Positions 47,632 to 60,337 of a DNA stretch of 64,000 nucleotides are shown one piece after another; positions within the stretch are counted from its first letter, which is position 1; each line of letters starts with the position of its first letter. Below the pieces are notes generated by a model, which saw nothing but the letters and a program-made list of their open reading frames with translations, was not told the DNA's origin and did no database searches. Origin of the DNA: Candidatus Marispirochaeta associata (GTDB lineage Bacteria; Spirochaetota; Spirochaetia; JC444; Marispirochaetaceae); contig JWTM01000424.1 in the NCBI GenBank assembly GCA_001749745.1, positions 1 to 64,000 on the forward strand, read 5' to 3'. The translations under genes were made by a program, and so were the position numbers.

Positions 47632-48948
47632 TTATATGCGGATATTCAATTCGGGAACCGCTTCAATCACGCTCTGAGTGTTGGCCCGGGCCAGCTTGCG
47701 GGCGATTAATTTGGAGAGGAAGATCCCGTAGTGGGGGTACTCCTTGACCACCGAGACGAAGGCCTTGCGGGAGATCTTGACCAGCTTGCCCCGGGACTCG
47801 GCTTTGACCTGGGCGCTGCGCTTGTTATTGAGCAGGAAGGACATCTCTCCCATGAAGATATCCGCCGGGCTGAGCTTGCCCACCTTGCTCCCGGCGTGGA
47901 AAACCCCGAAGTGTCCCGACGCAATATAGTAGAGGAAGTCGCTGGTCTCCCCCTCTTCGAAGATCACATCCCCGGGTTGTACGCTGAGCGTCTCCTCGTC
48001 GCTGAATCCCGCCGGCGTAGAGCGCTCGGCATCGGGTTGATGGGCAAACTCGAGACGGACCACGTTCCCCTTCTTGTTGTACGAGAGCCGCTTGGATATC
48101 TTGCGGGCCATCAAGATGCCCCGTCCGTTGACCGTCTCCGGTCCGCCGGCTTTCAGTTTCTGCTGCAGCGCCCCGACGTCGAAGCCCTCGCCCTGATCGC
48201 GGATAGTGAAAACCGTTGCATCCCCGTCGGTATCCCACTCGAACCGGACCCGTTTAGAGGCGATATCCTGATTGGTACATTTTTGCTGTATCAGCTCGAT
48301 GATGGAACCTCCGGAGAGGAGAAATTTCTCCTTCTCTTCCATGCTGATGCCGCAGTTGCCGTGCTCGATGCCGTTCAGGATCAGCTCCGAGAGGGCGATC
48401 TGCAACTGAGTGCGCTGATCCTGAGAGATAAAACCCCGCTGCAGCAGGTTGGTTGCGCCTAGACCGGCGAATACCTGTACCGAGAGGGGATCGTTATCGA
48501 TTAAAAAAGCCCCGGCGCTCTTCTTGACCAGCTTCTCGGTGATGTCCTGTTGAAAGATGATCTGCCAATTGTCCTCAATGATGTGAATAATCTTATGCAG
48601 GTGGGTCTTGATGCGGCCCTGTTCCAAGAAGGTCAGCACATTGATGTCCCGGAAATCCTCCAGCAGCTGTTCCTCGGTATTCTCCTTGCGGGAGTAGAGG
48701 GCGATGATGCCGAAGTTGTGCAGCCAGTTCTCCTTGCGGATCTTCTCTATGAGCGGCCCATGTTCGAGGGCGGGATCGCCTATGTTGAGGATGATGATCT
48801 CGGGAAGGTCGAAGTTGAGGAACTCCTCCACCTTTGCCTGGTCGGAGAAGGTTCGCAACAGGTGATGCTTGTCCCCTTCACTCTGAATCGCCTGCTGGAT
48901 ACTGAGATTCAGCTGCTGGTCGCTGCTTAGGACACCAATTAGACTCAT
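47632..48948 (-). CDS. signalling protein with receiver-like, RsbW-type HATPase and cNMP-binding domains
   Basis: A 438-residue cytoplasmic protein. Residues 1-120 are receiver-like (IIILNIGDPALE). About 150-305 form a HATPase_c_2 anti-sigma-type kinase fold with ALSELILNGIEHGN, TIRDQGEGFD and GRGILMARKIS. About 320-430 form a cyclic-nucleotide-binding domain (GDVIFEEGETSDFLYYIASG, then MGEMSFLLNNKRSAQV with the phosphate-binding Glu and Arg). The mix suggests cyclic nucleotide control of an anti-sigma or serine-kinase activity. No cognate sigma or antagonist gene is nearby. A class III cyclase is encoded 8 kb away. Confidence 0.8.
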   Translation of the reverse strand: MSLIGVLSSDQQLNLSIQQAIQSEGDKHHLLRTFSDQAKVEEFLNFDLPEIIILNIGDPALEHGPLIEKIRKENWLHNFGIIALYSRKENTEEQLLEDFRDINVLTFLEQGRIKTHLHKIIHIIEDNWQIIFQQDITEKLVKKSAGAFLIDNDPLSVQVFAGLGATNLLQRGFISQDQRTQLQIALSELILNGIEHGNCGISMEEKEKFLLSGGSIIELIQQKCTNQDIASKRVRFEWDTDGDATVFTIRDQGEGFDVGALQQKLKAGGPETVNGRGILMARKISKRLSYNKKGNVVRLEFAHQPDAERSTPAGFSDEETLSVQPGDVIFEEGETSDFLYYIASGHFGVFHAGSKVGKLSPADIFMGEMSFLLNNKRSAQVKAESRGKLVKISRKAFVSVVKEYPHYGIFLSKLIARKLARANTQSVIEAVPELNIRI

Positions 48949-55036: not shown

Positions 55037-56563
55037 CTAGCGGCGCAGGTAGGCGAGTTCCGCGGGGAGCATGATGTTATTGCCGTAGTTGTCCTCGCCG
55101 TAGCCGTTTTCGGCCAGAAGGCGCAGGTCGGCGAGGACCCGTCTATCGCCGGAGAACTCGACGGTCATACCGGTACGGATATCGATGCGTCCCATGGCGA
55201 GGAAATGGGCGATTCCCCGGGTGGCGAACTCGGCCAGGCTCTCGCCCTCTAAGTAGGAGATATCTTCCAGGGAGAAGTCGGTCTCGTAGAGAACGATCTG
55301 ATGATTCTCCAGAAGCTTGATCATCATTCGCCGCAGAGCCTTCTTCATGACCCCCTCGTCCTGGGGTACATGCCCCATGGTTGCGGCCAGCTCACAGACG
55401 ATTCCGGCCAGGGTCTTGCGCTTATGGGCGTTTATGGCCTCGTTGACCCGGAAGAGCTCCAGAGGACTGGCGGCATTGAACTCCTGATTGTCCATGTGCA
55501 GGGTTACCTCGCTCCCGTAGTGGGTTACGATCTTCGAGACCAGAGTGGAGGGCCGCACATGAAAGCCCCGGTACTGGGGTACCGGCGCCGAAATAGAGGC
55601 CTCTTCCGCATAGGCATGGATAATCTCCCGGCACAATTCCCGGCCGTTTTCGAAGAACCGGGCGGAGAAGGCCAGAATATAGTCGATCAGGATCGAGAGC
55701 AGCTCCGAGGGGGCAATGATTCCGTTGTGCCCCTGCAACATATGTCGTTCATAATAGTGGGAGAGAACGGTGCCCGTCTCCAACAGGTGAAAGATCGTGC
55801 TGGCGTGTCCCCGGAGGATCGGCAGATGCTCGTCCTGCTTCTCCGCATCCGAATCGAGGAGATAGGTATCGTAGGTAGACTGAATGCTGTGGAGGGCATG
55901 TTCCATGTTGCGGATGCGCGCCTCGTTGACCGGTTCGGGAATGCAATCCGGATAGTCGTCCTTCTTCTGGCGCTGGTTGATGGTGAAGAGTTCGGTATCC
56001 TCCGACAGGTTCAGGAAGGTGGTGGCCAAATTGACGATTGTCGGATCTGGATTATCGAGTTCCCGGCGGGGAAGATCCGGTTTCAGGGTTCCCTCGGGGA
56101 GCCGTTCAGTAAAATCCTGGCTGACGATGCCGGTTTCGAGGCGGTGGCTCTCGGCCTCGGCCAGAAGATTCTCCATGGCCTTCTTCAAGGCCGAGGTGCA
56201 TGCCTTCAGGGCCTTCCTCGTGGCCGCTAAGAAGTCCTCTTTGACCGAGAGAATCTTGTAACAGGGGTAGGAAGCGTAGATATGCGAGATGTTATGGACG
56301 ATCTGGGAGAATGCTTTGACCGCGGCTATGGATCGGCGAAACCCGTGCCAGGACTGGTTGTGCCGCGCTCCGTACTCATCCAAGAGCTCTTCGATAATAC
56401 GGCTTTCCAGATTCAGCCGCCCCAGGAAGGGACGAGTATACTTAAACCCGCCGTTCCGCTTCTCCGCCTCCTTGAGGAGGGTGATCAAGGATTGGGCTTT
56501 GGCCGTCATTAACTCTTGAAACGCGCGCTCTGAAACCTGTTTGTTCTTCCGCCATGCACTCAT
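55037..56563 (-). CDS. large protein with an internal HPr-like domain, function unknown
   Basis: A 508-residue soluble protein. Residues about 330-395 match HPr of the phosphotransferase system: YRGFHVRPSTLVSKIVTHYG with the phosphorylatable His335, then SEVTLHMDNQEFNAASPLEL with Ser366 at the regulatory-serine position. Free HPr is under 90 residues. Here it is embedded between a helical N-terminal region of about 320 residues and a C-terminal region of about 110 residues that I do not recognise. No other PTS gene is nearby. The gene is divergent from the cyclase pair, suggesting a link between phosphotransfer and cyclic nucleotide signalling. Confidence 0.7.
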   Translation of the reverse strand: MSAWRKNKQVSERAFQELMTAKAQSLITLLKEAEKRNGGFKYTRPFLGRLNLESRIIEELLDEYGARHNQSWHGFRRSIAAVKAFSQIVHNISHIYASYPCYKILSVKEDFLAATRKALKACTSALKKAMENLLAEAESHRLETGIVSQDFTERLPEGTLKPDLPRRELDNPDPTIVNLATTFLNLSEDTELFTINQRQKKDDYPDCIPEPVNEARIRNMEHALHSIQSTYDTYLLDSDAEKQDEHLPILRGHASTIFHLLETGTVLSHYYERHMLQGHNGIIAPSELLSILIDYILAFSARFFENGRELCREIIHAYAEEASISAPVPQYRGFHVRPSTLVSKIVTHYGSEVTLHMDNQEFNAASPLELFRVNEAINAHKRKTLAGIVCELAATMGHVPQDEGVMKKALRRMMIKLLENHQIVLYETDFSLEDISYLEGESLAEFATRGIAHFLAMGRIDIRTGMTVEFSGDRRVLADLRLLAENGYGEDNYGNNIMLPAELAYLRR

Positions 56564-56709: not shown

Positions 56710-57624
56710 GTGCAGATTTCAAAGAGTGTCGTACGCCTGTCGATAAAATCCCTGGTCGAGTCTATGGATCTTCCCACCATGATCCATGTGGTGAAGGAGT
56801 TTATCCCGGACTACAATCTTCACCAGCGGACCGGTATTCCCGCCAGTATTGCCGTCGCCAACCTCGATGCGGCCAGTCGAATCGTCCAGGACATAATCGC
56901 CGAGGACCGTTTTCTCGACTTCATCGCCTATCTAATCCGTTACGAGGAAGAAGGGGTGATGGGACGCCGGATTACCATCGCCTACCTGCGGGAGATTCTC
57001 AAGGCGGTATTCGCCCAGGGCTATCTCTACGACAAGGATCAGCACATGTTCGTCGAGGATCCGCGTTTCAGGAAGAGCCGCAACTGGGGGGTTCTAAAGC
57101 CCGGAGTGGAGTATACGGTCTGTTTCTTGCGGATCGATATCGCCGGGAATACCCGCCTGGTGAAGGATAACAGCGCCGCCAAGGTCAACGCCGCCTACGG
57201 TTTCCTGCGCGAAACGGTTCATGCTTCGGTGGAGCGCAGAAACGGCCGGGTCTGGCTCTGGGAAGGGGACGGCGGGATTGCGGCCTTCACCTTCGGCAAT
57301 CGCAACCAATCGGCGGTACTGGCGGCGATGGAGATCCTCCACGAACTCTTCTTCTACAACAAGACGCGCTGCCCCCTGAAGACCGAACTCAAGGTCCGGG
57401 TAGGGGTCCATTCCGGGTCTTGCGAATATACCGAGGATAACGCGGCTCTGATAAAAAGCGAAGCGGTACAGCGGGTGATGGACGTGGAGAAGCAGCACAC
57501 TGCTCCGGGAGCCTGCACGATCAGCATTGTGGTCCGGGAGATGCTCGATCATCTGGTGTCCAGCCAGTTCAAACCGGTCAAAAGCGGTAACTACTTCAGC
57601 TATGCATTGGAGCTGGAAGCATGA
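56710..57624 (+). CDS. class III adenylate/guanylate cyclase homologue
   Basis: A 304-residue protein starting at GTG. Residues about 1-130 form a helical domain of unknown type; about 135-280 form a class III nucleotide cyclase domain. The two metal-binding aspartates are present: Asp143 in RIDIAGNTRL and Asp187 in WEGDGGIAAF, and LKVRVGVHSG follows. The region normally holding the transition-state Asn and Arg (here EAVQRVMDVEKQH) is atypical, so activity needs testing. The last four bases overlap the start of a degenerate paralogue. Confidence 0.78.
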   Translation: MQISKSVVRLSIKSLVESMDLPTMIHVVKEFIPDYNLHQRTGIPASIAVANLDAASRIVQDIIAEDRFLDFIAYLIRYEEEGVMGRRITIAYLREILKAVFAQGYLYDKDQHMFVEDPRFRKSRNWGVLKPGVEYTVCFLRIDIAGNTRLVKDNSAAKVNAAYGFLRETVHASVERRNGRVWLWEGDGGIAAFTFGNRNQSAVLAAMEILHELFFYNKTRCPLKTELKVRVGVHSGSCEYTEDNAALIKSEAVQRVMDVEKQHTAPGACTISIVVREMLDHLVSSQFKPVKSGNYFSYALELEA

Positions 57625-58562
57625 GGCGGTTGATTCTTCTCACGGATAATCGCGAGCGGCTGGTCTGCTTCGACACGGCGGAGCGATCCAAGAGTTTCGA
57701 GATCGAGATTCGGGCCAGCAAGGAGTGGAAGCAGCTCCTCCAAGGCTCCCCGGCATTGATCTATCTCGATCTCGGATCCATGAGCGATCGGGAGGCCAAG
57801 CGGGCGATCCGGGCCTTCGAGTCCCAGGAGGAGATCGCTTACGGTGTGGTTGATCCCGACGGCGTAGTTGCGGATCCGGCCGACCTCTTTCACGGCGGCG
57901 CCTCGGACTATATCGGTCCGGAGATGGCCCAGAAGAAGCTCCCTACGAGCCGCATCAGCCAGGCTTCGGAGTTCTATCCTGAACATGAGGAAGAGGCGGT
58001 CTTTAGCGATATCAGCTGGTCCGATATTCGGGAGGGAGAGGAGTACCCCTTCTTTTTTCTCTATGTGGAGCTCGATATTCTGGACGAATGGAAGCTCAAA
58101 TCGGGTAAGGGACTGATCTCCGGATTGATGAAGACCTTCGAAACCCATCTGACCCGGGTGCTCGGTCCCTTGGGCGGCCGGCTGTGGATGAAGAATCAAT
58201 ACGGCGGACTCTTTCTCTTCCCCTATTCCGAGGGGCCGAGCGATATCATTCCGGTCTGTATGCGTCTGGTAATGAACCGCGTACTGATCTCTACCGAGGT
58301 CTATAGCTACGGGACCCTGTTGCCTTACCATTTCGCCCTCGACCGGGGTACCACGGTCTACCGCCAACCGGAGAAGACCGGAACATTGATTTCCGACGCG
58401 GTGAACAATATCTTTCATTTAGGGCAGCAGCACACCCCGGCCGGCCATTTCGTGCTGAGCCAGGATGCGGCGGAACATATTCCCGCGGGCTTGAGGGACT
58501 CTTTTACCGATTTCGGCGCTTTTCACGAGCGTAAGATGCTTAGAATGAAGTTACCGAGGTAG
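57621..58562 (+). CDS. degenerate class III cyclase paralogue with receiver-like N-terminus
   Basis: A 313-residue protein in an ATGA overlap with the preceding cyclase. Residues 1-100 look receiver-like (LILLTDNRERLV, ALIYLDLGSMSDREAKRAIRAF). Residues about 143-290 align with the neighbour's cyclase domain: LYVELDIL with RIDIAG, GRLWMKNQYGGLFLF with GRVWLWEGDGGIAAF, YHFALDRGTTVYR with VRVGVHSGSCEYT, and a shared QQHTPAG/KQHTAPG block. The second metal Asp is replaced by Tyr194, so it is probably inactive alone and may be a regulatory partner. Confidence 0.7.
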   Translation: MRRLILLTDNRERLVCFDTAERSKSFEIEIRASKEWKQLLQGSPALIYLDLGSMSDREAKRAIRAFESQEEIAYGVVDPDGVVADPADLFHGGASDYIGPEMAQKKLPTSRISQASEFYPEHEEEAVFSDISWSDIREGEEYPFFFLYVELDILDEWKLKSGKGLISGLMKTFETHLTRVLGPLGGRLWMKNQYGGLFLFPYSEGPSDIIPVCMRLVMNRVLISTEVYSYGTLLPYHFALDRGTTVYRQPEKTGTLISDAVNNIFHLGQQHTPAGHFVLSQDAAEHIPAGLRDSFTDFGAFHERKMLRMKLPR

Positions 58563-58604: not shown

Positions 58605-58678
58605 GGGGGTGTAGCTCAGTTGGCTAGAGCGCGTGAATGGCATTCACGAGGTCATGGGTTCGATTCCCACCACCTCCA
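58605..58678 (+). tRNA. tRNA-Ala (GGC)
   Basis: A complete cloverleaf: acceptor GGGGGTG/CACCTCC, D arm GCTC-AGTTGGCTA-GAGC, anticodon arm CGTGA-ATGGCAT-TCACG with anticodon GGC, and T arm with TTCGATT. The discriminator is A (58678). The CCA end is not encoded (CTAC follows) and must be added after processing. Confidence 0.95.
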
Positions 58679-58690
58679 CTACATAACGCT

Positions 58691-60337
58691 ATGAGCGATC
58701 ATACTGATTCTAAAAGTGATCTGTTCTCCGGCAATATCGATCCGGATATTGCTGAATTAATGGGTATCGACAAAGAAGACTCCTCTCCGGTCCCTGAATT
58801 CGAAGACCTCTTCGAAGAAGGGGGGCCGAAGCCGGAGGCCGCTTCCAGCGTCGACGACATAAGCAAGGAACGCTTTCATCCCATTTCCCGCTTCGAACAG
58901 GATCCACAGCCCTATTTCAACGACAAGAACTACTATAAAACCGCCCTCTCGGGAGAGGGGGAGGTTTCTCAGCGTATACACGGGCTCCTTTCGAAGTTCC
59001 TGAACACCGAGGATACAAAGGAGCGCTCGGTATATCGCGGAAAGATCCTCTCGGCCTACTGGAACCTTGTGGAAAACATCAGCAAGAAGATCTATGCCCA
59101 GTTGCCGATGCCGAAGATTCTGATGCTGCGCTACGGGGTGCTGCTGCCGACCCTTCTCTCGAAGGAGCAGCGCAAGACCCTCTCCAAGATTGTCTTCCGC
59201 AACGAGACCGGCGAACCGGTCCACTATGTGGATGAGTGGCTGACCATGGTCGCCCAAGGAGTGGTCAGCAATTCCGCTACCGACGAGACCAAGGTTACCC
59301 GGCGCACCAAGGAGCATAAGGTCAACAGTCGGCTGGAGAAGGTTAAGGGTCAGCGAGACTTTCAACTGGGAGTCCTGAACCGGAAGCTTTCCGAGATGCA
59401 GAGCATGGAGAACCGTCTCAAGGATCTTGTCCGCAGCGTAGCGCAGCGAGGCGACCGGGCCGATATTCCCGGAGTTAAGGATACTTACACCCACGAGCAG
59501 CGACAGGCTCTGACCCAGGTGATGAATATGGTTCGGGAGTTGCAGGGGATAGATAAGGAACTCTCCAAGACCTTCGACCATTTTGAAGAGAACCAGGCCG
59601 AACTGAAGCGGCTCCAGGAGAGCGCCGAAGGGATCGATTCGAACAGGGTCGATAACGAGGCCCTTAATACCGAGTTCTCCACGGTGCGCCAAATGGCGAA
59701 ACTCTGCGTCGGGCGTCAGGGAAACCACTTCCCCATTGCGATGAAGCAGTATTTTCGGGATTCGATCCGGGACATCGCTACCCGGGAGAACGTAATTATG
59801 CAGATGGGCGCGGTGGAGAGCCTCGATCCGGGTCTCTTTCAGCGGACCTTCAAGCAGCAGACCAACCGAATCGTCCCGCATGTGCTGATTATTCCCAGCT
59901 ACGGCGACCGGGGTATCTGCTGGGAGCCCTTCGAGAAGTATAACCGGGCTACCAGCCGCGGCAGGATTGCGATCCCCCTCTTTCCGAAGGATGTGAAGAC
60001 CGCCGTTATCGCCGCCTTAGGCGACCTGCGTTGGCAGGTTGCCAAGGAGAAGGCCCAGCACTACTGGATGGAAGAAGGGGTAACCGGCCGCTACTACCAG
60101 TGGTTTACCGACAAGAAGATCCGCGGCGATGTTCGGGAGTACTTTATTAACGACTACATCCTCTGGATTACCAAGGAGAGCGAGGGGACTCAGAAGCTCG
60201 AACGGGAGGTCCGGGGCATCATGTGGCGCTACTGCCCCTTCCCGCAGTATCTGAAGGATGAACTCCGGAAACGGGGCTATGTCTACAACGAACTCTATAA
60301 GCGGGATGTGAACCGCTCTATGTCCGACGGGTATTGA
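58691..60337 (+). CDS. conserved protein of unknown function, probable cytoplasmic coiled-coil protein
   Basis: A 548-residue protein starting 12 bases after the tRNA. The first 60 residues are acidic and disordered (DHTDSKSDLFSGNIDPDIAEL). About 200-320 look helical and coiled-coil-like (SRLEKVKGQRDFQLGVLNRKLSEMQSMENRLKDLV). The C-terminal part holds a conserved-looking block (VLIIPSYGDRGICWEPFEKYNRATSRGRIAIPLFPKDVKTAVIAALGDLRWQVAKEKA). No signal peptide or transmembrane helix. I do not recognise the family. The frame open upstream runs through the tRNA and is rejected. There is no Shine-Dalgarno. Confidence 0.75.
   Translation: MSDHTDSKSDLFSGNIDPDIAELMGIDKEDSSPVPEFEDLFEEGGPKPEAASSVDDISKERFHPISRFEQDPQPYFNDKNYYKTALSGEGEVSQRIHGLLSKFLNTEDTKERSVYRGKILSAYWNLVENISKKIYAQLPMPKILMLRYGVLLPTLLSKEQRKTLSKIVFRNETGEPVHYVDEWLTMVAQGVVSNSATDETKVTRRTKEHKVNSRLEKVKGQRDFQLGVLNRKLSEMQSMENRLKDLVRSVAQRGDRADIPGVKDTYTHEQRQALTQVMNMVRELQGIDKELSKTFDHFEENQAELKRLQESAEGIDSNRVDNEALNTEFSTVRQMAKLCVGRQGNHFPIAMKQYFRDSIRDIATRENVIMQMGAVESLDPGLFQRTFKQQTNRIVPHVLIIPSYGDRGICWEPFEKYNRATSRGRIAIPLFPKDVKTAVIAALGDLRWQVAKEKAQHYWMEEGVTGRYYQWFTDKKIRGDVREYFINDYILWITKESEGTQKLEREVRGIMWRYCPFPQYLKDELRKRGYVYNELYKRDVNRSMSDGY

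Follow-up and report, generated by a model that had tools for sequence, protein, structure and literature searches.

Two overlapping genes for proteins with the class III nucleotide cyclase fold were found in the window (the whole stretch of DNA analysed, 64,000 nucleotides from Candidatus Marispirochaeta associata), and the locus raises the question of how two homologous cyclase chains encoded together share the work of catalysis. The first-pass annotation of the window had proposed a heterodimer of an active cyclase and an inactive sensor subunit. The reading preferred here, at a probability of about 0.85, is that ORF1 and ORF2 are partners in a class III nucleotide cyclase that is obligately heterodimeric and has a single, composite active site. 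It starts from the fold of both proteins, the conserved pairing of their genes, the partition of catalytic residues between them and the full residue set of solo paralogues (relatives with no partner gene nearby); from these we infer the heterodimer, its activity, its regulation and its product.

The features of the locus are listed in Table 1. The ATGA overlap suggests translational coupling of ORF1 and ORF2, and the equal production of the two chains proposed in the first annotation could follow from it. The pair is flanked by a divergent gene for a 508-aa protein on one side and by a tRNA-Ala gene on the other. The 508-aa protein (55037-56563, minus strand) contains an HPr-like PTS stretch that scored below threshold (PF00381, 19.2 of 23 bits), and its relatives were absent near other pairs. 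A 566-aa protein (58637-60337, plus strand) matched no Pfam family and had relatives near the pair at loci L009 and L045. The host genome assembly consists of 629 contigs, with an estimated contamination of 11%; the closest relatives of ORF1 and of ORF2 are from Spirochaetota.

Table 1. Features of the cyclase gene pair (positions in the window)
Feature	Position	Strand	Basis and remarks
ORF1, metal-half cyclase subunit (C1/sGC-alpha-like)	56710..57624	+	GTG start, 304 aa; ORF, weak PF00211, 3mr7, family profile
ORF1 N-terminal helical domain, function unassigned	56710..57069	+	Profile alignment (312 columns, including this part); no Pfam match
ORF1 class III cyclase domain	57085..57609	+	3mr7 match, family profile, model
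D143, first metal aspartate of ORF1	57136..57138	+	88/88 ORF1-type proteins
D187, second metal aspartate of ORF1	57268..57270	+	88/88 ORF1-type proteins
EAVQRVMDVEKQH, Asn/Arg sites now Q254/D258	57460..57498	+	Asn with His or Arg in 0/88 ORF1-type proteins; aligned to GDAVNVAARLE of 3mr7
ATGA overlap, ORF1 stop/ORF2 start	57621..57624	+	Sequence; -4 spacing recurs in 21/86 pairs
ORF2, Asn/His-half cyclase subunit (C2/sGC-beta-like)	57621..58562	+	ATG start, 313 aa; ORF and fold match
ORF2 receiver-like domain; phospho-acceptor site D50, remaining receiver residues unconserved	57621..57974	+	Profile and residue counts
ORF2 class III cyclase domain without metal site (E150, Y194)	58017..58547	+	Model, fold match, residue counts
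N262, counterpart in alignment of adenylyl cyclase C2 Asn1025	58404..58406	+	83/83 ORF2-type proteins; 3mr7 alignment
H266, where the canonical Arg sits	58416..58418	+	81/83 ORF2-type proteins

In bacterial homodimeric class III cyclases such as 3mr7, Ma1120 and CyaC all catalytic residues are present on each subunit. The class III active site lies between two protomers; two aspartates of one bind the metals, and an asparagine and an arginine of the other hold the ribose and phosphates (PMC9223806, PMC3591389). In sGC these residues are divided between alpha and beta, and neither homodimer is active for that reason (PMC3591389). In adenylyl cyclase the metals are held by C1, and the contacts to adenine and from Asn1025 are provided by C2 (PMC9223806); a second, pseudo-symmetric non-catalytic site in the animal enzyme binds forskolin (PMC3591389). 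The Asn/Arg pair is variable in further enzymes of class III (PMC4886424).

ORF1 scored 13.9 bits against PF00211, under the curated cut-off of 21.9, and matched PDB entry 3mr7 with E = 5e-7 as a single sequence and 3e-9 as a family profile; from these alignments it is judged a weak but genuine class III cyclase. By profile comparison its helical N-terminal domain is common to the solo paralogues and absent from ORF2. A tblastn search of plasmids with ORF1 gave no match.

ORF2 as a single sequence gave no match in Pfam, PF00211 included. With the family profile, the last 140 residues matched 3mr7 (E = 0.0015) and the first 100 residues matched response regulators (E = 4e-5). One relative reached PF00072 at 4e-12, and the receiver-like N-terminus described in the first-pass annotation is thus borne out. 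AlphaFold modelled ORF2 with a mean pLDDT of 91.5, and this model matched class III cyclases of the PDB with target-normalised TM-scores mostly of 0.65-0.78, as well as receiver-containing proteins such as PleD. Among ORF2-type proteins D50 is conserved in 92%, D9 of the acidic pair in 35% and the Lys site in 42%; the acceptor Asp is often lost in one clade, the clade that contains the relative reaching PF00072. Because the acidic pair and Lys are unconserved and the acceptor is often lost in that clade, the domain more probably acts in dimerisation or allosteric control than as an ordinary phospho-switch. The degenerate receiver is a plausible regulatory input. The ORF2-type proteins at L116, L117, L111, L122, L123 and L140 (family f50) have a recognisable receiver domain, and in several of them Glu occupies the expected acceptor site, where it may mimic the phosphorylated state.

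The kinship of the two chains was assessed directly and through the solo paralogues. ORF1 and ORF2 aligned over 153 aa with 18% identity (E = 1e-5), which is weak alone. Against the profile of the solo paralogues, the ORF1-type proteins scored E = 2e-62 over 312 columns and the ORF2-type proteins E = 6e-32 over 179 columns. The solo paralogues, represented in the host genome by L044, combine an ORF1-like N-terminal domain with an ORF2-like Asn-His motif and reached PF00211 with E-values down to 6.7e-9. In the tree the ORF2-type proteins form one group (support 94). The ORF1-type proteins are not strictly one group in this quick tree, and with the midpoint root the solo paralogues are basal and do not form one group. 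Two proteins listed at first as solo, L092 and L065, were reassigned to the ORF1 type on account of their place within its clade. Next to L092 there is a partner gene, for which the ORF start had been set too far upstream.

Pairs were extracted from the fetched loci, and classes were assigned by profile score and not by catalytic residues. Pairing in relatives had been set as a test beforehand and proved to be conserved: there were 86 adjacent same-strand ORF1/ORF2 pairs, spread over 76 Spirochaetota genomes or records. A protein search of 393 genomes of the phylum gave relatives in 103, and a search with the ORF2 profile gave relatives in 93 genomes, both counts including matches to solo paralogues. 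The two genes lie within 30 bases of each other in 73 of the 86 pairs, the commonest spacings being -4 (21 pairs) and 0 (16 pairs). Clustering of the neighbours at the 86 loci did not bring out any third gene that is conserved; the most widespread cluster was present at 14/86, in varied positions and on both strands. The wider neighbourhoods being unconserved, the unit consists of these two genes. Six genomes contain two pairs, and there partners share the same or overlapping nearest relatives, most clearly in four and most loosely in G143. The identity matrices of the two families are correlated (r = 0.93), a value that common descent alone could yield. An exact-peptide scan of genome contigs gave spirochaetes only. 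Scans with Pfam, NCBIfam and PADLOC assigned the pair to no family, and a PF00211 search of its own genome missed the pair while finding ten canonical cyclases.

The catalytic residues are partitioned between the two families. ORF1-type proteins have both metal aspartates in 88/88, as first annotated for ORF1 itself, and Asn with His or Arg in 0/88; at these sites Asn occurs alone in five and His alone in two. ORF2-type proteins have both metal aspartates in 0/83, Asn in 83/83 and Asn with His in 81/83. All four residues (two Asp, Asn and His) are present in 14/14 solo paralogues. The replacement of the second metal aspartate of ORF2 by Tyr194 had been recognised earlier; the first position is also changed (E150), a point that had gone unmentioned. 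The substrate-side region of ORF1 that had been called unusual, EAVQRVMDVEKQH, is exactly the lost Asn/Arg motif. R230 of ORF1 is invariant in the ORF1-type proteins (100%, compared with 47% of the ORF2-type).

When all columns conserved in the solo proteins were scanned, they were found to split into an ORF1-only set (D143, S148, V151, G186, D187, N217, E260 and others) and an ORF2-only set (the G254, N262, H266, L267 and E302 columns, in ORF2 numbering). The G...N...HL motif and the C-terminal Glu are kept by ORF2-type proteins only; in this alignment, however, the window's own ORF2 shows His in the Glu column. Both types retain fold positions, W182 and G236 among them. The register was confirmed by separate profile alignments to NVAAR of 3mr7, opposite which the solo proteins have NyAaH and the ORF1-type proteins kkvve, and it was the same for both families against the solo profile. 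The canonical Arg four residues after the Asn, present in 3mr7, is replaced by His in 81/83 ORF2-type and 14/14 solo proteins.

In the predicted dimer the two metal aspartates would come from ORF1 and the ribose-positioning Asn (N262) from ORF2, a complementary split of the C1/C2 type. Because this partition matches that of sGC alpha/beta and of C1/C2 in adenylyl cyclase, ORF2 is expected to complete the active site rather than to be a dead sensor. Neither protein is predicted to work alone, so that ORF1 without ORF2 should be inactive. The heterodimer with a sensor-like domain proposed in the first-pass annotation is well supported by the conserved pairing and the receiver-like domain; its inactive pseudo-subunit finds no support, the ORF2-type proteins having kept the Asn with His that the ORF1-type proteins lack.

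That earlier reading, in which ORF1 would be active as a homodimer and regulated by an ORF2 without catalytic function, agrees with the two metal aspartates kept in ORF1 and with the existence of class III enzymes that work without the canonical Asn, such as Rv1900c, which has His there (PMC4886424). It is nevertheless improbable: Asn with His or Arg is never found in the 88 ORF1-type proteins and Asn with His is found in every solo protein, and the ORF2-type proteins conserve exactly the missing residues (83/83 and 81/83), for which a dead partner would have no need. Two adjacent cyclase genes acting separately, with the complementary loss as coincidental decay, would fit the identity of only about 18% between ORF1 and ORF2. 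The losses, however, are clean and complementary throughout the clade (76 genomes or records), and the retained residues are strongly conserved, which leaves decay by chance scarcely credible.

Conservation of this kind is evidence of constraint, not of activity. Since Arg is changed to His and there is no base-specifying Lys/Asp, the pair cannot be taken for granted as active. These same changes, together with the failure of the pair to reach any curated family, would suit a heterodimer that binds nucleotide as a sensor without cyclising it. We hold this quite unlikely, as the metal aspartates are kept in 88/88, more strictly than binding alone would demand, and the solo proteins keep the full set.

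As for the heterodimer itself, a fused AlphaFold model was obtained from relative L055, whose in-frame genes were joined through a single stop codon with a one-residue linker. Both folds were predicted confidently (pLDDT 92.4, pTM 0.84) and the model matched class III cyclases, so that, with the model of ORF2, the two chains appear as related folds. The Foldseek alignments of the fused model to human sAC and AC9 covered most of their length (540-560 columns) and probably span both cyclase domains in order. Over the full aligned length the rmsd was about 23 A and the TM-score 0.2-0.3; the fused model gave both folds and failed to superpose on sAC or AC9. The one-residue linker may be responsible for this failure, which leaves the canonical head-to-tail wreath arrangement unconfirmed and is the main evidence against the preferred reading.

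In the proposed heterodimeric enzyme, D143 and D187 of ORF1 would hold the two metals and the triphosphate, and R230, by analogy with adenylyl cyclase C1, is probably the triphosphate arginine. N262 of ORF2 would hold the ribose, with H266 standing in for the phosphate-contacting Arg. The second, pseudo-symmetric site would have neither residue set and no catalysis. The overlapping genes would allow both chains to be made together. Regulation would probably come from ORF2's receiver-like domain and ORF1's helical domain, by way of the dimer's angle or stability. By analogy with forskolin in animal adenylyl cyclase, the vacant second site could bind a regulator, which for this pair is speculation.

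Neither the Lys/Asp nor the Glu/Cys base-specifying pair is present; in ORF2-type proteins the Lys site is mostly Met or Ile and the Asp site often Thr. For this reason the product could be cAMP, cGMP or another cyclic nucleotide. The host genome has 19 matches to cyclic-nucleotide-binding domains, and a receptor is therefore available. At 8 kb from the pair, a 438-aa protein (47632-48948, minus strand) combines a histidine-kinase-like ATPase (HATPase_c_2) with a cyclic-nucleotide-binding domain and is a possible receptor or anti-sigma-type output. A Pycsar defence system was considered and rejected, no shared neighbour cluster near the pairs being fit as a membrane or TIR effector. Similarity to Pycsar PycC was weak and confined to the cyclase domain (ORF1, E 3e-8; ORF2 had no match), and PADLOC matches were weak and limited to ORF1-type and solo proteins.

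By fold and residues the pair belongs to class III; what appears new is the bacterial two-gene split and the use of Asn-His for Asn-Arg. Like mammalian sGC alpha/beta, it consists of two genes for homologous subunits with one predicted composite site, the metals on one subunit and the Asn side on the other. It differs from sGC in the His of ORF2 for Arg, the lack of a Glu/Cys guanine pair, other sensor domains, a bacterial host and overlapping genes. The mammalian transmembrane and soluble adenylyl cyclases have the same metal side (C1), Asn1025/Arg1029 side (C2) and second non-catalytic site, but as one polypeptide and with the Lys/Asp adenine pair that the two spirochaete genes lack. Chytrid rhodopsin guanylyl cyclase/NeoR is likewise a heterodimer of cyclase subunits with different sensory parts (PMC12264004, PMC8815786); the chytrid proteins are eukaryotic membrane rhodopsins. 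With 3mr7, Ma1120 and CyaC the pair shares the catalytic fold and sequence kinship. Its solo paralogues, unlike the pair, carry the four catalytic residues in one protein.

The usual account traces the two-half split of the animal enzymes to a duplication and fusion at an early stage of eukaryotic evolution. Bacterial class III cyclases homodimerise, according to a 2022 review, which knew of no fused bacterial form (PMC9552081). Searches of the open-access literature found no bacterial heterodimeric cyclase. In the spirochaetes, which are bacteria, this active-site split seems to have occurred separately and to have been kept as two genes, and some of their genomes also retain an undivided, presumably homodimeric relative alongside the pair. 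What is gained from an asymmetric cyclase, in which one site is lost and a regulatory pocket won, is thereby directly testable with small soluble proteins. It is possible, if on balance doubtful, that an asymmetric cyclase of the C1/C2 kind arose independently in spirochaetes, as two overlapping genes, from a homodimeric ancestor that survives in part of these genomes. Such an enzyme would have an Asn-His catalytic pair and a base pocket perhaps for a nucleotide other than ATP or GTP, and would be controlled by a degenerate receiver and possibly by a ligand in the vacant site.

Some loci depart from the common arrangement. In G003 an apparently orphan ORF1-type gene (L065, 4986-5906) lies about 65 kb from an ORF2-type gene (L135, 4857-6215) that adjoins a 125-aa ORF1 remnant, and the two may be a separated pair. 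At L124 (4905-6587) a solo-type cyclase is in one ORF with an upstream extracellular solute-binding-protein domain (SBP_bac_1), possibly a fusion or a misassembly.
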